From: Acidobacteriota bacterium
GTDB taxonomy: Bacteria > Acidobacteriota > Blastocatellia > Pyrinomonadales > Pyrinomonadaceae
NCBI GenBank assembly: GCA_013813755.1
Contig: JACCRD010000131.1
Coordinates: 1 to 35,485 of the forward strand
Length of the DNA stretch: 35,485 bases
Direction: 5' to 3'
Shown: positions 1,612-30,404 of the stretch, piece after piece
How the letters are laid out: the number at the start of each line of letters is the position of its first letter
Numbering within the stretch: position 1 is the stretch's first letter
Notes under the pieces: generated by a model
Databases searched by the model: none
Told to the model about the DNA's origin: nothing
The model's input: the letters and a program-made list of their open reading frames with translations, nothing else
Made by a program: the position numbers and the translations under genes

Positions 1612-2181
1612 TTATTCACTCGGACGCTCGTAAATCCAAACAGCTTCCTCATCATCGTATTCTTTGAGCATAACTTTAATAATTTCAGTTTTTTTCGTTG
1701 GCACGGTTTTGCCGATGTAGTCGGCTTGAATCGGCAGTTCGCGGTGTTCGCGCCCGCGATTGATAAGCACGGCGAGCCGGACTTTTTTCGGTCGTCCAAA
1801 ATCCATTAACTGGTCGAGCGCGGCACGAATTGTTCTGCCCGTGTAAAGTACGTCGTCAATTAAAACAACGGTTTTATCAGAAATGTCCTCATCAAGTTCG
1901 GTGCGGTTGACAATCGGGTTGGCGCCGACTGTGGAGAGATCGTCGCGGTAGAGTGTGATGTCAATAATTCCGAAAAGCGGGCGCACGCCTTCTAAATCTT
2001 CGATTTTTTTGGCAATTCGTTCGGCAATCGGAACGCCGCGCCGACGTATTCCAACTAAATACAGATCTTTCGCGCCCTGATTTTCTTCGACAATTTCTGA
2101 CGCGAGACGAGATAATGCGCGCTTCATTCGCGCATTATCCATAATTTTTGATTTTTCAACTAGGTTAAGTTCATCTGCCAT
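1612..2181 (-). CDS. pyrR: bifunctional pyr operon regulator / uracil phosphoribosyltransferase
   Basis: PyrR proteins bind UMP and PRPP and, in Firmicutes, control pyr mRNA by attenuation. Many also have uracil phosphoribosyltransferase activity. The 189-aa product has the PRPP-binding signature [18 protein letters not shown] at about residues 105-122, the segment [15 protein letters not shown], and the typical [13 protein letters not shown] and [21 protein letters not shown] segments. Its length is typical. The start is [10 protein letters not shown], just upstream of the pyrD/pyrR divergent spacer. It is followed by a terminator-like hairpin and then pyrB, which supports a regulatory role over the downstream pyr gene. 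Whether the mechanism is attenuation or translational repression cannot be told from sequence. Confidence 0.95.
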
Positions 2182-2209: not shown

Positions 2210-2268
2210 TTAAAGTTTCAAGTTCAAAGTTTTCACATTTCGCATTTAACAATTATCATTTATCATTT
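2210..2268. repeat. degenerate heptad repeat in the pyrR-pyrD divergent spacer
   Basis: The 92-bp spacer between the two start codons is mostly a run of 7-nt units. Written in sevens it reads ttaaagt, ttcaagt, tcaaagt and then, in a slightly shifted register, cacattt, cgcattt, aacaatt, atcattt, atcattt. Neighbouring units share 4 to 7 of 7 bases, against fewer than 2 expected by chance in random sequence. The run reaches to within 5 nt of the pyrD ATG. No clear promoter hexamers are visible, although both genes must be transcribed from about here. Confidence 0.65.
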
Positions 2269-2273
2269 TTACG

Positions 2274-3368
2274 ATGTCGAAAATTTACCAATCCATTATC
2301 CGCCCGCTGCTTTTTCGTTTTCCGACTGAAACGGCACACGAGTTTGGAATTGAATCGCTGAAGATTGCTCTCAGGTCGAAAACAGCACAGGATTTTATTG
2401 CGGGAAAATTGGCGTGCGACAAATTTAGCGGACTGCAAAGATTTGGTTTGAAGTTTGGAAATCCTCTGGGAGTCGCCGCCGGCTTTGATAAAAACGGTGT
2501 GGCGGTCAATCAACTTGCCGCGCTCGGCTTCGGATTTGTCGAGGTCGGAACGGTAACTTTTAATCCGCAGGAGGGAAATGAAAAGCCGAGAATGTTCCGT
2601 CTGTCGGAAGATAAAGCTTTAATCAATCGGCTCGGTTTTAACAATCAGGGAACGGCGAAGGTTGTGGAGCGTCTGAAAAAAATCAGTCCAAACTGCGTTC
2701 TCGGCGTGAACATCGGAAAAAACAAAGACGTTTCAAATGAAGACGCGGTGGACAATTATTTGAAGAGTTTTGAACTGGCATCTGAAGTAGCCGATTACGT
2801 CGCGGTTAATGTTTCGAGTCCGAACACGCCTCACTTGCGCGATCTGCAAAAAGCCGACGCGCTCGAAGAACTTCTCAGAGCTTTACAGACACGCAATCAG
2901 GAACTTCGCGCCAAACCCCTGCTCGTCAAGATCGCGCCGGATTTGTTGCAAGCGGAAATCGAAGCGATTGTCGATATCGCGCTCAGATTAAATTTAGACG
3001 GAATAATTGCGACCAATACAACCATTAAAAGAGACAATCTACAAACAAAAAATGTTGGCTCAATCGGCGTTGGCGGTTTGAGTGGAAAGCCTCTGCGAAA
3101 ACGCTCAGATGAGGTTATCCGGCAAATTTACCGATTTTCAAAGGGCGATTTGCCGATCATCGGCGTGGGCGGAATTTTTGATGCCGAAGATGCGTTTGAA
3201 AAAATCGCTTCCGGCGCAAGTCTGATCCAAAGCTACACGGGCTTTGTTTACAGGGGCATAACTTTCGCTCGCAATGTGAATTTCGGTCTGGCGAAAATTA
3301 TTAAGCAAAAAGGATTCGAATCTTTAGATGAAGTAGTCGGTATCGATGCAAAAAAATCTGGCACCTGA
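2274..3368 (+). CDS. pyrD: dihydroorotate dehydrogenase (quinone), class 2
   Basis: PyrD oxidises dihydroorotate to orotate with FMN and passes electrons to membrane quinones. The 364-aa protein has the class 2 N-terminal extension (IIRPLLFRFPTETAHEFG) that contacts the membrane and quinone. FMN-binding segments GVAAGFDKNG (about residue 65-74) and TNTT are present. The catalytic-base region reads VNVSSPNTPHLRDL, with Ser rather than Cys at the base position, which marks class 2. The phosphate-binding IIGVGGIFDAEDA follows. It is divergent from pyrR-pyrB, so two steps of the same pathway flank one 92-bp spacer. There is no good Shine-Dalgarno sequence before the ATG. Confidence 0.96.
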   Translation: MSKIYQSIIRPLLFRFPTETAHEFGIESLKIALRSKTAQDFIAGKLACDKFSGLQRFGLKFGNPLGVAAGFDKNGVAVNQLAALGFGFVEVGTVTFNPQEGNEKPRMFRLSEDKALINRLGFNNQGTAKVVERLKKISPNCVLGVNIGKNKDVSNEDAVDNYLKSFELASEVADYVAVNVSSPNTPHLRDLQKADALEELLRALQTRNQELRAKPLLVKIAPDLLQAEIEAIVDIALRLNLDGIIATNTTIKRDNLQTKNVGSIGVGGLSGKPLRKRSDEVIRQIYRFSKGDLPIIGVGGIFDAEDAFEKIASGASLIQSYTGFVYRGITFARNVNFGLAKIIKQKGFESLDEVVGIDAKKSGT

Positions 3369-4330: not shown

Positions 4331-4392
4331 TAATTTGCGAATAAAGTTTCGGATTTTGAATCGAATTTAAGTGCAGTTTTTATTCAAATAAA

Positions 4393-4420
4393 AATCCATA
4401 ATCTAAAATCCAAAATGGGA
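4393..4420 (+). repeat. degenerate heptad repeat running into the fabH start codon
   Basis: The sequence divides into the 7-nt units aaaaatc, cataatc, taaaatc, caaaatg, and each neighbouring pair matches at 5 of 7 positions. The last unit contains the fabH ATG. The leader therefore has no Shine-Dalgarno sequence and is made of repeat. The same periodicity can be followed weakly further upstream in the 84-bp rpmF-fabH spacer. Confidence 0.55.
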
Positions 4421-6421: not shown

Positions 6422-6661
6422 ATGTCAGAAGTTCAAGAAAAAATTAAACAAATTATTGTTGACGAATTAGGAGTGGATGAGGGGGAAGTTACGGAAAACG
6501 CCCGCTTTATCGAGGATTTAGGGGCGGATTCATTGGATTTGGTTGAACTCGTGATGCGTTTTGAAGAGGAATTTGATATTGAAATTCCTGATGAAGATGC
6601 CGAAAAAATACAAAGTGTTCGTGACGCTTATGCATATGTCGAGCAGCACAAAAATGCTTAA
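6422..6661 (+). CDS. acpP: acyl carrier protein
   Basis: ACP carries growing acyl chains on a 4'-phosphopantetheine arm. The 79-aa acidic protein has the attachment motif [11 protein letters not shown] with the modified Ser at residue 37, plus the typical [17 protein letters not shown] helix-loop region. It is preceded by a strong AGGAG Shine-Dalgarno seven bases from the ATG, the best ribosome binding site in the cluster, as expected for an abundant protein. fabG, which commonly lies between fabD and acpP, is not here. A long inverted repeat follows the stop. Confidence 0.98.
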
Positions 6662-6670
6662 TTTCTAGTG

Positions 6671-6727
6671 GCAAGCGCTAAACGGTAAGTGATAAGTTTT
6701 TGCTTTCCCTTACCGTTTAGCGCTTGC
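6671..6727. repeat. 19-bp perfect inverted repeat between acpP and fabF
   Basis: The arms GCAAGCGCTAAACGGTAAG (6671-6689) and its exact reverse complement (6709-6727) enclose a 19-nt loop. A short outer pairing (TAGTG at 6666-6670 with CACTA at 6736-6740) extends the structure. It fills the 84-bp acpP-fabF spacer. No run of T follows either arm directly, so it is not a standard intrinsic terminator. In RNA it would form a very stable hairpin between two co-transcribed genes with different expression needs, and could act as a processing or stability element. Confidence 0.85.
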
Positions 6728-6745
6728 GGCTTTTCCACTATTCTT

Positions 6746-7987
6746 ATGAAACGTCGTGTTGTAGTTACGGGACTCGGTCTGATTACGCCGTGTGGAAATG
6801 ATGTCACCACCACGTGGACGTCAATTATTCGCGGTCAAAGCGGTGTCGGTTTTATTGAAAAATTTGATACTGAAAAATACTCGGTAAAAATCGCGGCTGA
6901 AGTCAGAAATTTTGACCCGCTGAATTTTATGGAGAAAAAAGAAGCCAGGCGAATGGGTGCGTTCACGCATTTTGCGATTGCCGCCTCCGATGAAGCCATA
7001 AAACACAGCGGATTAGTTATTGATGATTCCAACGCTGAGATGATCGGCACTTATATCAGCAGCGGAATCGGTGATTTCTGGGCGATTGAGCGAGAGCACG
7101 ATAAACTTTTGTCGGGCGGACCCGACCGCGTATCGCCTTTTTTTATTCCGCAGTCAATCGTTAATCTGGCGGCGGGCAACGTTTCAATCAGGCACGGCGC
7201 GAAAGGTCCGAATACGGCAACCGCTACCGCCTGCGCGGCTGGGGCGCACGCCATCGGCGACAGTTTCAGATATATTGAACGCGGCGATGCTGACGCAATG
7301 ATTTGCGGCGGCGCGGAAAGCGCAATTACTCCAATGTCAGTCGCGGGTTTTGCTTCACTGAAAGCGCTTTCCACGCGAAACAATGACCCGCAAAAAGCCT
7401 CGCGTCCTTTTGACGCGGAACGCGACGGCTTTGTCATCGGCGAAGGCGCGGGACTTATGATTTTGGAAGAACTTGAGTTTGCCAAAGCGCGCGGTGCGAA
7501 AATTTACGCCGAAATCGTCGGCTATGGAATGAGTGGCGACGCTTTTCATATCACCGCGCCCGATGAAACCGGTTCGGGACCAAAACGTGTGATGCTGAAA
7601 GCGATGAAGGATGCCGGAATCGGACCGGAACAAATCGGTTACATTAACGCTCACGGAACTTCAACGCCGTATAACGATAAATACGAAACTTTAGCGATTA
7701 AATTAGCGTTTGGCGATCACGCTCAAAACGTTGCGATTAGTTCGACAAAATCGATGGTTGGACACGCACTCGGCGCGGCGGGTGGAATTGAAGCGGTTTT
7801 CAGCGTTTTGGCAATTCACGAAAAAGTTTTGCCGCCGACGACCAATTACGAGTTTCCTGACCCGGAGTGTGATTTGGATTACATTCCAAACGAAGCTCGA
7901 GTCGCGGAAGTTGAATATGTTTTGTCAAACAGCTTCGGCTTTGGCGGAACGAATGCCTGCCTGATTTTCAAGAGATTTGGTGAATAA
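6746..7987 (+). CDS. fabF: beta-ketoacyl-ACP synthase II
   Basis: FabF elongates acyl-ACP with malonyl-ACP. The ORF track starts at 6689 inside the inverted repeat. The start I use is the ATG at 6746, which begins MKRRVVVTGLGLITPCGND, the canonical KAS II N-terminus, and gives 413 aa. The active-site Cys is in TATACAAGAHAIGD (about 162), with catalytic histidines in NAHGTSTPYND (about 303) and KSMVGHALGAAGG. The C-terminus SNSFGFGGTNACLIFKRF is typical. It has no strong Shine-Dalgarno sequence. The hicB gene starts 3 nt after its stop. Confidence 0.97.
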   Translation: MKRRVVVTGLGLITPCGNDVTTTWTSIIRGQSGVGFIEKFDTEKYSVKIAAEVRNFDPLNFMEKKEARRMGAFTHFAIAASDEAIKHSGLVIDDSNAEMIGTYISSGIGDFWAIEREHDKLLSGGPDRVSPFFIPQSIVNLAAGNVSIRHGAKGPNTATATACAAGAHAIGDSFRYIERGDADAMICGGAESAITPMSVAGFASLKALSTRNNDPQKASRPFDAERDGFVIGEGAGLMILEELEFAKARGAKIYAEIVGYGMSGDAFHITAPDETGSGPKRVMLKAMKDAGIGPEQIGYINAHGTSTPYNDKYETLAIKLAFGDHAQNVAISSTKSMVGHALGAAGGIEAVFSVLAIHEKVLPPTTNYEFPDPECDLDYIPNEARVAEVEYVLSNSFGFGGTNACLIFKRFGE

Positions 7988-9205: not shown

Positions 9206-10177
9206 ATGATTTTAGTATTTATCGAACACAAAAATTGTGTTTTAAACAAAGCCTCGCTTGAAGCGGTTGCTGCCGCGCAAAACATCGGTAAGGACTTAGG
9301 TTTGAGTGTGACTGCCGTGATTCCATGTGACAAAGATTGTAGTTTGGCTCAGGAATTAGCTGCTTATAATTTGGAAAAAGTTATTGTTGCGAAAAACGAT
9401 AAACTCGGAATATATACACCTGATGCTTATGCGGATGCGTGGGAAAATGTGATTAAAGCGACAAATCCAAAATATGTCGTGATGGCGCACACTTATCAGG
9501 TGCGAGATTTTGCGCCGAAAATTGCTGCGCGGCTGGGAAGGGAAGTGGTCGCAGACTGCATTCGCTACCGCCATGAAAACGGAAAACTTGTTTTTACGCG
9601 CCGTATTTTTCTTGGCAAATTAGATGCTGATGTCACAATTGAAGGCGACGCGCCATATTTTGTAACGTTTCAATCAGGCGCATTCCGCGGCGAGAACGCC
9701 GAAAAGGGCGACGGCGCAAAAGTTGAAATAATGGAAGTTCAAATCAGCGAGCCGCGAATGCGGGCGGAAGAACCGTTTCAGGAAGTAAAAGCATCAGTTG
9801 ATTTAACAAAATCAGGAATAATCGTGGCAGTCGGGCGCGGCATCAAATCACAGGAAAATATTGCCCAAGCTCAAGCGCTTGCCGATGCGCTCGGCGGGGA
9901 CCTCGCCGCATCGCGTCCGATTTGCGACGCTGAATGGCTACCGATTGAACGGCAAATCGGCTCCAGCGGACAAACCGTCGCTCCGAAAGTTTATATCGCG
10001 CTCGGAATTTCCGGCGCGATTCAGCATATCGTCGGTATGAAAAATGCCGGAACAATCGTCGCCATTAATAAAGACAAGGAAGCTCCAATCTTTGATATCG
10101 CCGACTACGGAATTGTCGGAGATTTGTTTGAAGCCCTGCCCGTGATGGTCGAAGAAATTAAAAAAGCGAAAGGTTAA
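9206..10177 (+). CDS. etfA: electron transfer flavoprotein alpha subunit
   Basis: EtfA holds the FAD of ETF and passes electrons on, usually to ETF:quinone oxidoreductase. The 323-aa protein has an N-terminal alpha/beta domain (MILVFIEHKNCVLNKASLEA) and a C-terminal FAD domain with IIVAVGRGIKSQENIAQAQALADALGG, GSSGQTVAPKVYIALGISGAIQH and NAGTIVAINKDKEAPIFDIADYGIVGDL, which are the classic FAD-contact motifs. No ETF:quinone oxidoreductase or acyl-CoA dehydrogenase gene lies nearby in the window. The operon ends at the strong terminator that follows. Confidence 0.96.
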   Translation: MILVFIEHKNCVLNKASLEAVAAAQNIGKDLGLSVTAVIPCDKDCSLAQELAAYNLEKVIVAKNDKLGIYTPDAYADAWENVIKATNPKYVVMAHTYQVRDFAPKIAARLGREVVADCIRYRHENGKLVFTRRIFLGKLDADVTIEGDAPYFVTFQSGAFRGENAEKGDGAKVEIMEVQISEPRMRAEEPFQEVKASVDLTKSGIIVAVGRGIKSQENIAQAQALADALGGDLAASRPICDAEWLPIERQIGSSGQTVAPKVYIALGISGAIQHIVGMKNAGTIVAINKDKEAPIFDIADYGIVGDLFEALPVMVEEIKKAKG

Positions 10178-10192
10178 ACTTAATTTTTCAGT

Positions 10193-10238
10193 AAACAAGA
10201 AAGCCGTTAGAAATTAATTTCTAACGGCTTTCTTGTTT
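10193..10238. terminator. bidirectional intrinsic terminator
   Basis: This is a 46-bp perfect palindrome with two 23-bp arms centred at 10215/10216. Its GC-rich core GCCGTTAG is flanked by A-rich and T-rich runs (AAACAAGAAA before, TTTCTTGTTT after). It lies between the convergent ends of etfA (+) and the DUF6335 gene (-) and would terminate both. Confidence 0.9.
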
Positions 10239-10254
10239 ATAATAAATCTTGTGA

Positions 10255-14654: not shown

Positions 14655-14699
14655 AAATTAGAATTACTCATCCAAAGTCAAAAGCCAGAGTAATCTCGA

Positions 14700-14727
14700 A
14701 ACTATAAACTATCAACTTTTAAGTATC
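14700..14727. repeat. degenerate heptad repeat upstream of glgP
   Basis: The sequence reads as 7-nt units aactata, aactatc, aactttt, aagtatc, with 4 to 6 matches between neighbours. The pattern weakens to each side (ccaaagt, caaaagc before; aaatgga after). It occupies the 114-bp spacer between the macro-domain gene and glgP. I could not identify promoter hexamers there. Confidence 0.5.
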
Positions 14728-19853: not shown

Positions 19854-19912
19854 GCACGCTTTGCATTTAATGATAAATAGTTAATTTCGATTAACTGTGA
19901 TTGCTGAACAAA

Positions 19913-25412: not shown

Positions 25413-28202
25413 ATGCCTGTAGGAACATCAATTCGGATTTACGATTTAGCAAAAGAGATTAAACAAGATACAAAGCGCGTGATTGAAGAATTACGGCGCG
25501 AAGGCATAGATGTAAGTGTTCCTTCCAATTCTGTTACCAAAGAAGTTGCCGAAAAAGTTCGCAATAGATACTTTCCCAAAACTGAAGTTCCTCCGAAGCG
25601 TGGAATAAAAATCATAAAAAAAGCGCTTAAGATAGAAGAGGAATCAGTTGAAACAGAAGAATCGCCGGAAGTGGATGTCGCCGCACCGCAGTTGGAAGCA
25701 GCAACAGTAAAAGAACCGATAGTCAAAGAAAAAATCGAAGTAACTCCTCAGCCAGTTGCTCAAGAGCAGGAAGTTCAAAAACCCGCTCGTCACGTTAGAA
25801 AACTTCAAAAGAAGATTGACTTAAAACCTCTGGACGAAACACCTGTTATTGACGAAACTCCTTTAACAGTTGAAGAAAAAGACGCTCCGGCTGCAGTTCG
25901 ATCCGTCGAAGATACTCAGGGGGCTGCAGGAAACGGACAGTCTCCGGAGTTATCAGAATATTCTGCTGAAGTCAAAAATAAAACTACAACTAGAGTGCTT
26001 CGTCCGAACGAAACGCAGGTTAAAGAATTAAAATTAAAACAAAGCTCGCTCAATCAAGGCTTGAAACCAGGTGACCGGGTAGTTAATAACGCGCCGACCA
26101 CGACCGGAAGATTAAAGACTGAAAAGCCGCAGGAGATTGTCAGAAATGATGTGCGGCGCGATGGCGGCAAAGATACACGAAAAAGTGAATTGCGCGCAAC
26201 GCCGGGCGAGACTTCAACTCCCAAAACGACATATACCCCGCCGGTTGACCAGCGCAAAAAATTCGGACGTTCAGCTCCCAAAAAAGGCGGCAAAAGATTT
26301 GAAGACAAAGGCGCGAGATTTGAAGAAAGAGATGTTGCCGCGCCACGGCAGCGTTCAATCGAAGAGCGCATTCTCGGACAAGTTGATACGGTTGACAAAA
26401 ATAATCTCACGCTTATTCGTCTGACTGAAGGCGCGACGATTCGCGAATTTTCCGAATCGCTTGGTGTTACGCCGCGTGATGTCGTTCAACTACTTGTTAA
26501 ACGCGGTATTTTTGCGACGCTCAATCAGCCGATTGGCGAAAATATGGCGGTTGAGCTGGGACAAACTCTCGGTTACAACGTCAGTTTTGTGCCGTTTGAA
26601 GAAATGGTTATCGAGCAGGAATTTGAAGAACTGATCGCTGCCGATTCTGATGATATCGAAGTTTCGCGCCCGCCGGTTGTGACGGTAATGGGTCACGTCG
26701 ATCATGGTAAAACATCACTTCTTGATGCGATTCGTTCGGACAATGTTGCGGAAGGCGAAGCCGGCGGAATCACGCAGCATATCGGCGCATACAGCGTTTT
26801 TGTTCCAAATCCGGACAATCCGCTGGAACCGCGCCGCGTAGTTTTTCTCGATACGCCGGGTCACGAAGCCTTTACATTAATGCGCGCGCGCGGCGCGAAA
26901 GCTACTGATGTTGTAATTCTCGTGGTTGCCGCCGATGATGGCGTAATGCCGCAGACGATTGAAGCGATTGAACATTCAAAAGCGGCAGGTGTGCCGATTA
27001 TTGTTGCCATTAACAAAATTGACAAGCCTGACGCAACCCCGGACAAAGTTAAACAGGGGCTTGTCGCGCAGGGATTGCAGCCGATAGATTGGGGCGGCGA
27101 TGTTGAAATGATCGCGGTTTCGGCGAAAAAACGCGAAAATCTTGATACTTTACTGGAAACAGTTTTGCTGAGCACCGATATTCTTGATCTTAAGGCAAGC
27201 CCAACCAGACGCGCGTCAGGCGTTGTTCTGGAAGCTAAACTTGATAAAGGTCGCGGTTCGGTAGCGACAGTGCTTGTCCAGCAGGGGACTCTGCGTGTCG
27301 GCGATCCGTTTATTGTCGGACAATATTACGGAAAAGTTCGCGCAATGTTTGGCGACCGCGGCGATATTGTCAATGAAGCGCCGCCCGCCACGCCGGTTGA
27401 AGTTCTCGGTTTACAGGGCGTTCCGCAAGCCGGCGATACTTTTCAGGTTGTTTCCGATATTGATAAAGCACAGACGATCGCCAGTCAGCGTCAAATGCAG
27501 GCGCGGCAGCTTGCCATGCTCAAAACTACCAAACGCGGTATTGAATCGCTCGGTCTGGCTGAAATTAAAGAATTATTGGTTGTCCTCAAAGCCGACGTGC
27601 AGGGTTCGGTGGAAGTTTTGCGAGCAACGCTTGAAAAACTTTCGACCGAAAAGGTCAAGGTGCGCGTTATTCGTTCGGGTGTCGGAGCGATTACTGAATC
27701 GGACGTTCTGCTCGCCTCGGCAACGCAAGCTGACGAAGCTTCGATGGCGGTTGTGATTATCGGTTTCAATGTGCGCCCGGCGGTTCGAGCTTCGGAAGTT
27801 GCTAAACAGGAACAAGTCGACATTCGTCTCCATTCGATTATTTATAAAGTCGAAGAAGAAATAACAGCAGCGATGATCGGAATGCTCGACGCGATCGAAA
27901 AAGAAGTTATTCTCGGTAAAGCGCTTGTTCAGGACATTTTCAAAGTCTCAAAAGTCGGAACGATTGCCGGCTGCCGCGTAACTGATGGATTGATCAGACG
28001 ACAAGCCAAAGCGCGTCTGATCCGCGACGATGTTGTTGTTTGGGAAGGCGATATTTCCTCGCTCAAACGCTTTAAAGAAGACGCTCCCGAAGTTCGACAG
28101 GGTTTCGAGTGCGGTATCAGTCTGGCAAATTTTAACGACCTCAAAGTCAATGATGAAATTGAGGCTTACGTGATTGAGAGAACGGCAGCAACAGAATTGT
28201 AG
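25413..28202 (+). CDS. infB: translation initiation factor IF-2
   Basis: IF-2 is the GTPase that brings initiator tRNA to the 30S subunit. The 929-aa protein has an N-terminal IF2_N domain (IRIYDLAKEIKQDTKRVIEELRREGI). A long charged, low-complexity linker (about residues 70-320) and a second IF2_N-like domain (ATIREFSESLGVTPRDVVQLLVKRGI) follow. The G domain has G1 GHVDHGKTSLLD (about 428), G2 GGITQHIGAY, G3 DTPGHEAF and G4 NKID, and domains II-IV complete the protein. It lies 81 bp after nusA. The spacer after it contains heptad-periodic repeat DNA. Confidence 0.97.
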   Translation: MPVGTSIRIYDLAKEIKQDTKRVIEELRREGIDVSVPSNSVTKEVAEKVRNRYFPKTEVPPKRGIKIIKKALKIEEESVETEESPEVDVAAPQLEAATVKEPIVKEKIEVTPQPVAQEQEVQKPARHVRKLQKKIDLKPLDETPVIDETPLTVEEKDAPAAVRSVEDTQGAAGNGQSPELSEYSAEVKNKTTTRVLRPNETQVKELKLKQSSLNQGLKPGDRVVNNAPTTTGRLKTEKPQEIVRNDVRRDGGKDTRKSELRATPGETSTPKTTYTPPVDQRKKFGRSAPKKGGKRFEDKGARFEERDVAAPRQRSIEERILGQVDTVDKNNLTLIRLTEGATIREFSESLGVTPRDVVQLLVKRGIFATLNQPIGENMAVELGQTLGYNVSFVPFEEMVIEQEFEELIAADSDDIEVSRPPVVTVMGHVDHGKTSLLDAIRSDNVAEGEAGGITQHIGAYSVFVPNPDNPLEPRRVVFLDTPGHEAFTLMRARGAKATDVVILVVAADDGVMPQTIEAIEHSKAAGVPIIVAINKIDKPDATPDKVKQGLVAQGLQPIDWGGDVEMIAVSAKKRENLDTLLETVLLSTDILDLKASPTRRASGVVLEAKLDKGRGSVATVLVQQGTLRVGDPFIVGQYYGKVRAMFGDRGDIVNEAPPATPVEVLGLQGVPQAGDTFQVVSDIDKAQTIASQRQMQARQLAMLKTTKRGIESLGLAEIKELLVVLKADVQGSVEVLRATLEKLSTEKVKVRVIRSGVGAITESDVLLASATQADEASMAVVIIGFNVRPAVRASEVAKQEQVDIRLHSIIYKVEEEITAAMIGMLDAIEKEVILGKALVQDIFKVSKVGTIAGCRVTDGLIRRQAKARLIRDDVVVWEGDISSLKRFKEDAPEVRQGFECGISLANFNDLKVNDEIEAYVIERTAATEL

Positions 28203-28270
28203 AAACAGAAAACTAAAAATGGAAAGCTGGAAGTATTTTATATTGCATTCTTAGTTTTCCATATTGCAAA
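28201..28270. repeat. heptad-periodic spacer with imperfect inverted repeat between infB and rbfA
   Basis: The whole spacer can be written in sevens (agaaaca, gaaaact, aaaaatg, gaaagct, ggaagta, ttttata, ttgcatt, cttagtt, ttccata, ttgcaaa) with 2 to 5 matches between most neighbours. The first half also pairs with the second: GAAAACTAAAAAT (28208-28220) and ATTCTTAGTTTTC (28247-28259) form 12 of 13 pairs. There is no T-run, so it is not a normal terminator. Confidence 0.6.
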
Positions 28271-28276
28271 AGATTT

Positions 28277-28648
28277 ATGCGTCGCCCGGAAAGATTAGCA
28301 GAAGCCTTGCGCGAGGAAGTAACCGAGATTGTCGGTTATGAACTGAAAGACCCGCGTTTGCAGGCAGTGACTGTGACAGACGTTCGCGTATCGGAAAATA
28401 TGCGGGACGCTAAAATTTTTGTAATCGTCGAGGGTGATGAAAAAGAAATTAAGAGCGTGCTGCGCGGATTGCAGAATGCGGCGACCTTTGTCAGACAACA
28501 AGTTGCGTTGAATTTGAATTTACGTCACGCTCCGGTTTTGAATTTTGTCCGCGATACAGTCGAAGAAAATGCCGTCCGCGTTGAAGAGTTGATTGTTGAT
28601 TTGACGCAAAAGGGCGAATTTCCGGAAAGGATTGACAAAGAGGAATAA
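28277..28648 (+). CDS. rbfA: 30S ribosome-binding factor RbfA
   Basis: RbfA is a cold-shock-associated 30S assembly factor that binds near helix 1 of 16S rRNA. The 123-aa KH-fold protein starts MRRPERLAEALREEVTEIVG and contains ELKDPRLQAVTVTDVRVSENMRDAKIFV and LNLRHAPVLNFVRDTVEENAVRVEEL, all typical. It follows infB after 74 bp of repetitive spacer and precedes nrnA. Confidence 0.95.
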   Translation: MRRPERLAEALREEVTEIVGYELKDPRLQAVTVTDVRVSENMRDAKIFVIVEGDEKEIKSVLRGLQNAATFVRQQVALNLNLRHAPVLNFVRDTVEENAVRVEELIVDLTQKGEFPERIDKEE

Positions 28649-28710: not shown

Positions 28711-29712
28711 GTGTTAAGTCAAGTAGTTGAGTTAATTGAAAACAAACAGAATTTTGCGATTACTACGCACGTTCGACCGGACGGCGACGGTATCGGTTCT
28801 TCTCTCGGCTTATGCTGGCTTCTGCGTTCTTTAGGCAAAACCGCCGAAGTTATCGTTCGCGACGGTATTCCCGCTTCTTATGAGCAGCTTCCGGGCGCTT
28901 GCGAAATCAGGAAAGTTTCGGAAATTGATAAAACCTACGATGCCGTTTTTGTGATTGAATGTTCAGATGTCACGCGCCCCGGCATTGCCAAACTTGAACA
29001 CCAATTTACTGTCAATATTGATCATCACGCGACCAGTGAGCATTTCGGTTCGATAAATTGGATTGACGCGACGGCTTCGGCGGTCGGCGAGATGATTTAC
29101 AATCTCTGCAAAGCCATCGGCGGACGCATTTCTAAAGAAATCGCCGAATGCGTTTACATGGCTCTCGTTACCGATACCGGCTCGTTTCATTTTCCAAACA
29201 CCACTGACCGCACGCTCAAAGTTGCTTCCGAACTGGTCAAAGTCGGTGTCAAGCCCGCTCAAATTTCCGAAATCGTTTACAGTAGTTATTCGTGGAGCCG
29301 CATTGAACTGATGCGACAGGTTTTAGCGACTGTTAAACGCAGTGAAGATGGAAAAATTGCATGGATGCGGCAAACACTCGAAATGGCGCAAGTTGCCAAT
29401 GCTGTCGATGGCGACAATAATGGATTTGTCAATATTCCGCTTGCCGCAAAAGAGGTTGCCGCGGTGGTTTATATGCGCGAAACTTTTCCGAACACGTTCC
29501 GTGTCAGTCTGCGCTCAAAAGACGGAATCAACGTTGCCAGAGTCGCAGAAAAATTCGGCGGCGGCGGACACAAGAATGCGTCCGGTTGTCGGGTGGAAGG
29601 CATCTGGGACGAATGCGAAAAGTCAATTGTCTCTGCGCTGACCGAAGCAGTTAATAAATCGCACGACGAATTGAAAAATTCTCAAAAAGCATTTGGAAGA
29701 ACATTGGTTTAA
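28711..29712 (+). CDS. nrnA: DHH family phosphoesterase, NrnA-like (oligoribonuclease / pAp phosphatase)
   Basis: NrnA-type enzymes degrade short oligoribonucleotides and dephosphorylate 3'-phosphoadenosine 5'-phosphate. The 333-aa protein has the DHH motifs THVRPDGDGIGSSLGL (about 20-34), NIDHHATSEHFG (about 108), VTDTGSFHF, and the DHHA1 substrate motif KFGGGGHKNASGC near the C-terminus. The start is GTG. Its position right after rbfA is the usual one in many phyla. I prefer NrnA to c-di-AMP phosphodiesterase because it lacks GAF/PAS or membrane parts. The substrate remains an inference. Confidence 0.9.
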   Translation: MLSQVVELIENKQNFAITTHVRPDGDGIGSSLGLCWLLRSLGKTAEVIVRDGIPASYEQLPGACEIRKVSEIDKTYDAVFVIECSDVTRPGIAKLEHQFTVNIDHHATSEHFGSINWIDATASAVGEMIYNLCKAIGGRISKEIAECVYMALVTDTGSFHFPNTTDRTLKVASELVKVGVKPAQISEIVYSSYSWSRIELMRQVLATVKRSEDGKIAWMRQTLEMAQVANAVDGDNNGFVNIPLAAKEVAAVVYMRETFPNTFRVSLRSKDGINVARVAEKFGGGGHKNASGCRVEGIWDECEKSIVSALTEAVNKSHDELKNSQKAFGRTLV

Positions 29713-29723
29713 AAGTGAAAAGG

Positions 29724-29777
29724 TAAAAAAGTGAAAAAGTTTATTATATAAGGATTAATAAAATTTTCACTTTTTTA
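29724..29777 (+). terminator. terminator-like 14-bp inverted repeat between nrnA and cobO
   Basis: TAAAAAAGTGAAAA (29724-29737) pairs perfectly with TTTTCACTTTTTTA (29764-29777), with a 26-nt AT-rich loop. The right arm ends in a T-run. The stem is AT-rich and so weak, but the shape fits an intrinsic terminator between the rimP operon and cobO. The left arm is part of a degenerate agtgaaa-type repeat (29712-29740). Confidence 0.55.
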
Positions 29778-30364: not shown

Positions 30365-30404
30365 GATTTAAATTTCAAATAATGGAGTAAATTATAAACT
30401 ACAA

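Follow-up and report, generated by a model that had tools for sequence, protein, structure and literature searches.

The degenerate 7-nt spacers scattered through this 35,485-nt acidobacterial stretch (the whole of it, as analysed, is termed the window) are best read as intact or decayed arms of dispersed hairpins with stems of tandem heptads—their phase being kept by slippage in 7-nt steps—and we give this reading a probability of roughly 0.6. Defined hairpins of this type are dispersed, as seen for an AAAACTG element in a member of the same family (G022) and for the GGTAAGT family in this genome; heptad words turn over at fixed orthologous sites while period and hairpin are kept, with units decaying in chain-like fashion along arrays; and in-frame heptad copies occur in housekeeping genes. 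Behind these observations we infer 7-nt slippage, a fill-in between the two arms and a route of dispersal.

Seven-nucleotide periodicity in the window and its genome

The spacer between the pyrR-like gene and pyrD (Table 1; both neighbours assigned by Pfam) had been described in the first-pass annotation as a series of heptads filling a divergent promoter region. Its units fall into two blocks, the first of TTCAAAG type and the second of CATTTAT type (TTAAAGT, TTCAAGT, TCAAAGT, TTTCACA, TTTCGCA, TTTAACA, ATTATCA and TTTATCA). The heptad composition is borne out by a lag-7 identity of 0.73: 38 of 52 comparisons (73%) are matches, against 16.8 expected from dinucleotide shuffles, and 0 of 5000 shuffles reach 38 (p<2e-4). 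As to the promoter setting, no link to promoter function was found in the analysis; the predicted RNA fold of the spacer was not significant (z −0.96). Of seven relatives compared, six have a heptadic spacer at the orthologous position, with differing lengths and words—e.g., other copy numbers or words in G001, G004, G006, G031 and G034—and lag 7 was not significant in the spacer of G026. Since the word varies among relatives, one shared promoter motif is ruled out at this site. In a relative copy of the GGTAAGT hairpin (L007, 8924), the right arm grades from CACTTACC plus GTTTACC into CATTTATC, which suggests, without proving it, a common word family for the CATTTAT block and the GGTAAGT hairpins. 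CATTTAT pairs have a strand polarity opposite to that of other words, a point against the hairpin reading. On that reading, the spacer as a whole would represent a solo, partly decayed array of the heptad-stem hairpin kind.

Eight stretches of the window, this spacer included, had been proposed as heptadic, and five of them hold when each is tested against its own dinucleotide shuffles. Besides the spacer, these are 4393–4420 and 14700–14727 (15 of 21 lag-7 matches and p<2e-4 in each), 28201–28270 (31/63, p=6e-4) and 6681–6700 (8/13, p=0.008). The remaining three fail: lag 7 was not supported at 19858–19900 (p=0.08) or 30365–30400 (p=0.16), nor at 29712–29740 (p=0.21), which has a period of 8 according to both our analysis and TRF. 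As all of these stretches were picked by eye, the genome-wide lag-7 test weighs more than the individual p-values. Table 1 collects the features delimited in the window. In the rpmF-fabH spacer, the inverted repeat formed by 4351–4366 and 4382–4397 is imperfect and weak, and neither the RNA fold nor the lag-7 signal of the whole spacer was significant in this genome; RNA folding gave no hairpin for the solo array at 14699–14727. Upstream of rbfA, a left arm at 28208–28224 faces an inverted right arm at 28243–28259. The period-8 feature is a hairpin (fold z −5.9) and is non-heptadic. A further non-heptadic structure, a perfect 22-bp hairpin with a 4-nt loop at 10192–10239, lies directly past the gene ending at 10177 and looks terminator-like.

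Table 1. Heptadic and related features delimited in the window
Feature	Position	Strand	Context and remarks
Degenerate heptad spacer, pyrR-pyrD	2210..2268	.	Between pyrR-like gene 1612-2181 (-) and pyrD 2274-3368 (+)
Putative left arm (GGATTTTGAATCGAAT) of a decayed AAAATCC hairpin	4351..4366	.	rpmF-fabH spacer
AAAATCC array (AAAATCC ATAATCT AAAATCC AAAATG)	4391..4417	+	Enters the fabH start codon, ATG at 4415
Intact GGTAAGT-family heptad hairpin	6667..6740	.	Fills the spacer between acpP (6422-6661) and fabF (6746-7987); -43 kcal/mol, z -9.6
Solo heptad array (AAACTAT AAACTAT CAACTTT TAAGTAT)	14699..14727	.	TRF and shuffles
Spacer upstream of rbfA	28203..28276	.	rbfA at 28277-28648; weakly heptadic; fold z -3.1
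Period-8 array with inverted arm (TAAAAAAGTGAAAA / TTTTCACTTTTTTA)	29711..29777	.	TRF period 8

The source genome is a 2.0-Mb bin of 264 contigs, about 72% complete, with gene calls made by a simple script and with the window as its contig C137; contigs C1–C65 (472 kb, about a quarter of the genome) served as an unbiased sample. Lag 7 was the strongest tandem period in this sample. With N excluded, 21 lag-7 arrays reached a score of at least 14, compared with 0 in Markov-shuffled sequence, and other lags yielded 0–6 arrays at the same score, the harmonic lag 14 (12 arrays) being the exception. Intergenic lag-7 identity—the check that the first-pass annotation had put forward, with shuffled controls—stood at z=10.7 over shuffles, the top value among lags 2–42. 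The shuffles rule out chance or AT-richness as the source of the signal. Moreover, AAAATCCAAAATC (at most 1 mismatch) had 135 matches in the genome versus 15 for its reversed control, so that the proposal of a dispersed, degenerate, 7-nt-phased family stands; many AAAATCC arrays do reach a start codon, as had been stated of the arrays in general. The arrays share with heptameric long simple sequence repeats (LSSR/STRR) tandem 7-nt units running longer than chance. They do not consist of near-identical units with one word per array, as the units drift along each array.

This drift has a definite form. In arrays of at least six units in this genome, unit identity falls from 0.76 through 0.68, 0.58 and 0.52 to 0.48 with growing unit separation, a decay reproduced by 0 of 1000 unit-order shuffles; one relative and a set of contigs that are cyanobacterial or labelled viral follow the same trend. 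A fall of this kind is the pattern expected from serial addition of neighbouring copies, and it matches the earlier claim of units that diverge under a constant period. Substitutions between adjacent units displayed no strong bias (ts/tv 1.4 and 1.05).

Plain local polymerase slippage, in which microsatellite-like arrays grow from local sequence in 7-nt steps, with nothing mobile and with inverted partners as a secondary matter, would account for the decay of unit similarity, for solo arrays lacking common flanks and for the dominance of lag 7 across many genomes with different words—and it makes a mobilising enzyme unnecessary. We regard it as unlikely. The same words recur at many loci, yet the AAAATCC heptamer is not unusually common (403 occurrences versus 556 for AAAATCG and 539 for AAAATCA). 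The T variant favours the penultimate unit of AAAATCC arrays (21/43 versus 5–9/43 elsewhere, a signal owed mostly to G022), inverted partners bear the same word, and there are dozens of near-identical hairpin copies with related loops. As for the solo arrays, which predominate among the strong arrays of this genome (1 inverted near pair among 46), no common flank sequence was found for 42 AAAATCC arrays, which rules out a larger repeat carrying them; given these two results, their descent from hairpins is something we infer.

Dispersed hairpins and word turnover at orthologous sites

The feature at 6667–6740, on whose hairpin form the first-pass annotation was silent, as it was on inverted arms and in-gene arrays altogether, is the sole intact heptad hairpin in the window; most other arrays there are solo or decayed. 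Its left arm (6671–6692) and right arm (6706–6727) enclose a loop at 6693–6705. A pattern scan for the GGTAAGT arm returned 24 matches in this genome, and several full hairpins, nearly all intergenic, were read in its sampled loci; GGTAAGT is the only clearly paired family here, i.e., the only one in close inverted pairs. Among eight congeners scanned, the pattern had 27 matches in G002, 25 in G004, 11 each in G007 and G008, 10 in G003, 4 in G001 and 0 in G005 and G006, with the qualification that the reversed control, being similar to a different heptad word, has matches in other genomes. The same genome contains a second dispersed hairpin family, with CACAGAT units about 10 nt apart (ACCACAGATAAGCACAGATAATCACAGATAA plus an inverted arm), at L053 11263–11364, L034 3515–3622, L001 17045–17126 and L033 9420–9523.

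In each of the six species compared, the acpP-fabF spacer consists of heptads (lag-7 p≤0.001), and in five of them it folds strongly (z −5.5 to −9.0), whereas five words occupy it: GGTAAGT in two species (this genome and G004), and TTTGTCC, GAATGGT, GATAATG and GACCACC, with other words in G006, G026 and G020 and no strong fold in the GACCACC version. The rpmF-fabH spacer behaves similarly but more weakly, with significant lag 7 in 3/5 species and heptad-hairpin folds in G034 (z −4.1), G026 (z −2.9) and G004 (z −2.6). Orthologous spacers keep the period while words differ. One part of the earlier proposal needs correction: many of the arrays are hairpin arms and not plain spacers. That an active process makes or keeps the 7-nt phase is supported, the acpP-fabF and pyrR-pyrD spacers both staying heptadic while their words change.

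The hairpin architecture is clearest in G022, whose regions were chosen for AAAATCC and in which array density is consequently biased. There, a partner of the same word lies inverted within 150 nt of 59 of the 73 strong arrays; near pairs are inverted in 36 cases versus 1 in the same orientation, and random pairs match in word in 7%. Arms mostly hold 4–5 units, G-rich on the left (37/39) and C-rich on the right (39/39), and a stop codon is at most 15 nt away in 22/35 cases and a start codon in 18/37; a bias towards co-directional genes was marginal (31/36 versus 66/88, p=0.05). Gene cassettes bounded by arrays as terminal repeats were ruled out in this genome, as words match across the spacer. 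The AAAACTG hairpin of G022, about 84 bp long, is dispersed as an exact element: about 38 copies are listed, at 89–98% identity, and three of them carry paired TTTAC/GTAAA changes in both arms. Its dispersed, near-identical copies with inverted repeats are what is expected of a MITE; its flanks (AAGAR/YTCTT) resemble an extended stem, not a direct target-site duplication, and no clean empty site was seen among the genomes compared, none of which is a close congener of G022.

Such features also recall REPINs, i.e., hairpins moved by a Y1 (IS200-like) transposase of the RAYT type: the hairpin form, the intergenic placement and the copy number are REPIN-like, and Y1 domains above cut-off were detected in 77 of 97 relatives. 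We consider this a very improbable source of the arrays. Y1/RAYT mobilisation was rejected on the lack of correlation between PF01797 and AAAATCC counts (rho 0.17, p=0.10), a comparison in which AAAATCC counts under-report arrays of other words; G000, G013 and G061 have arrays and no Y1 match (G000 being the source genome of the window, 72% complete), and many Y1-rich genomes are without the AAAATCC word. The analysis turned up no mobilising enzyme.

Counts of AAAATCC in fact proved misleading as a proxy for arrays, as seemingly array-poor genomes bear other words. In loci of relatives with few or no AAAATCC arrays, 39 lag-7 segments were found versus 0–2 at lags 4–6 and 8–13; 14 of the 27 genomes sampled use new words, and inverted pairs make up 8 of the 11 near pairs. 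An exact 24-mer core was present in 7/297 genomes of the phylum, in a scan that measures one word only. Further afield, lag-7 arrays and inverted pairs turn up in several contigs labelled viral and on three stretches of cyanobacterial plasmid, and an identical 31-mer, AATCCAAAATCCAAAATCTAAAATCCAAAAT, was found on a Sphaerospermopsis plasmid; no lag-7 arrays were detected in 50 kb of E. coli. The viral-labelled loci L192, L194 and L202–L205, rich in heptad arrays and hairpins, may be misclassified bacterial sequence.

Arrays inside protein-coding genes

AroA, LysA and GlcD carry in-frame heptad arrays, those of AroA and GlcD being solo. The AroA array, a heptadic stretch of about 42 nt, is found in aligned members of the genus and is missing from more distant family members. 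In LysA, the content of one loop differs by species: two have AAAATCC, another has AAATCGG, and G008 has an entire GAGTGGA hairpin. In GlcD, near-identical AAAATCC arrays occupy one site in three species (G000, G001 and G003), among which fourfold-degenerate sites of the gene are 0.49–0.54 identical. At that position, GlcD of G006 (L261) contains an unrelated in-frame palindrome, GCCAGCATCTTGCTGG..CCAGCAAGATGCTGGC, the site being a permissive insertion point for unrelated palindromes. Across the array-bearing genes, fourfold-degenerate sites are 40–68% identical between species, which makes passive retention of near-perfect arrays at shared sites hard to credit; the persistence of the GlcD and AroA AAAATCC arrays at this level of divergence again speaks for an active process. 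Re-homogenisation, re-insertion and selection are all possible explanations of these shared-site arrays. Overall, AAAATCC arrays inside ORFs number 24 in the sense orientation (KIQNPKS) versus 4 in antisense (GFWILDF).

Selection on regulatory sequence deserves separate consideration. If heptads were protein-binding sites or mRNA stems or leaders, selection would keep both period and hairpin, in agreement with the retention of the acpP-fabF hairpin in most species, with the proximity of G022 arms to stop and start codons and with the translational regulation that MacGregor proposed for TAACTGA (PMC4679880). This explanation nevertheless seems improbable, more so than local slippage: words vary at one and the same site, leaving no fixed recognition sequence, arrays also lie within the AroA, LysA and GlcD coding regions, and the 7-nt step is left unexplained.

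Under the dispersed heptad-stem hairpin reading that we prefer, an element would consist of about 4–5 tandem heptads, a loop and the same units inverted. Units would be gained and arms homogenised by slippage of the 7-nt register during DNA synthesis, either in tandem within one arm or through a hairpin that shifts by one unit and is then filled in, the latter overwriting the word of one arm with that of its partner. A change arising in a single unit could then spread, such that words drift while the period is inherited. A cross-arm register test was set aside, the best register having been taken by maximum and being hence biased. Surviving copies sit at tolerated places—immediately past stop codons, immediately ahead of start codons or within protein loops—with those inside proteins on the strand encoding the hydrophilic peptide KIQNPKS, not GFWILDF; hairpins of the acpP-fabF intercistronic type may persist as mRNA stems. 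In practice, spacers are rewritten by the arrays and housekeeping proteins acquire peptides such as KIQNPKS, with consequences for gene calling and evolutionary inference. Additionally, orthologous conservation of period and hairpin turns acpP-fabF, rpmF-fabH, LysA and AroA into test loci for the heptamer question.

Relation to known heptamer repeats and palindromes

The predominance of heptamers among the long simple repeats of many bacterial genomes has been known since 2007; Mrazek and colleagues suggested that the replisome favours 7-nt steps, and the published guess at the cause is a polymerase footprint (all as reported in PMC4679880). The first-pass annotation contrasted the arrays with known heptamer repeats of near-identical units; this was wrong, as both the Xanthomonas (GGGANTN)n repeats (PMC4692102) and the Nostoc trnL stems (PMC4476775) are heterogeneous.

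The Xanthomonas and Nostoc GGGAATC/GGGNATC repeats mostly have about 4 units and lie between aligned genes; in Xanthomonas, GGGAATC forms 70–75 close inverted pairs with the C-rich strand reading toward the adjacent gene, and a G-quadruplex reading was proposed for GGGNATC repeats (PMC4692102). The arrays described here likewise have heterogeneous 7-nt units, and G022 shares both the inverted pairs and the C-rich strand toward the gene. They differ in that AAAATCC, AAAACTG and GGTAAGT are without GGG. With no G run in the main words, the quadruplex reading does not generalise, and it is weakened as an explanation because most words found here cannot form a quadruplex. They also differ in having many words per genome, in-frame arrays in enzymes and word replacement at orthologous sites.

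Direct repeats of TAACTGA lie a short way ahead of start codons in marine Beggiatoaceae, cyanobacteria and Bacteroidetes, as a single-word system in which related heptamers are rare and inverted repeats almost absent (PMC4679880). Arrays directly before start codons are common to both systems, and TAACTGA itself forms an array in this acidobacterial genome (L052, 689–746); many words, degenerate units and inverted arms set the present arrays apart. A closer counterpart of the stem is P6b of the Nostoc tRNA-Leu intron, with degenerate heptads on complementary arms in classes TDNGATT and NNTGAGT, 7- and 14-nt indels and replacement of the whole region (PMC4476775). Both classes fit words found here (TTGGATT and GATGAGT), while P6b is one locus in one intron, not described as genome-wide, and the present arrays are dispersed. 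NNNGATT heptads within the DISARM helicase gene drmA of a Planktothrix plasmid (L208, 12375–12500) fit the Nostoc Class I motif.

Dispersed palindromes are also known as Rickettsia palindromic elements and other MITEs, some of them in frame within protein genes (PMC10969869), and as REPINs (PMC3116915). The LysA hairpin of G008 resembles the Rickettsia elements in architecture only, as an in-frame palindrome in unrelated protein genes. The descriptions consulted mention no heptad-repeat stem for these elements, MITEs or REPINs (PMC10969869, PMC3116915), and no target duplication or transposase link was found for the arrays here.

Established before this work are heptamer simple repeats as a class, inverted GGGAATC pairs and the Nostoc trnL heptad stem. 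Relative to the available, partial literature, and with priority not certain, the many non-quadruplex words and dispersed heptad-stem hairpins in Acidobacteria appear new, as do the in-frame enzyme copies and the orthologous word replacement with period and hairpin kept. A broader connection among these systems is conceivable, if tentative: one DNA-writing process with an intrinsic 7-nt step, operating in distant bacteria, might make and re-homogenise both arms and overwrite species-specific words, perhaps through a particular polymerase that fills in hairpins after a shift of register. The Xanthomonas quadruplex repeats, the TAACTGA arrays and the Nostoc trnL stem would then be local cases of this general process.
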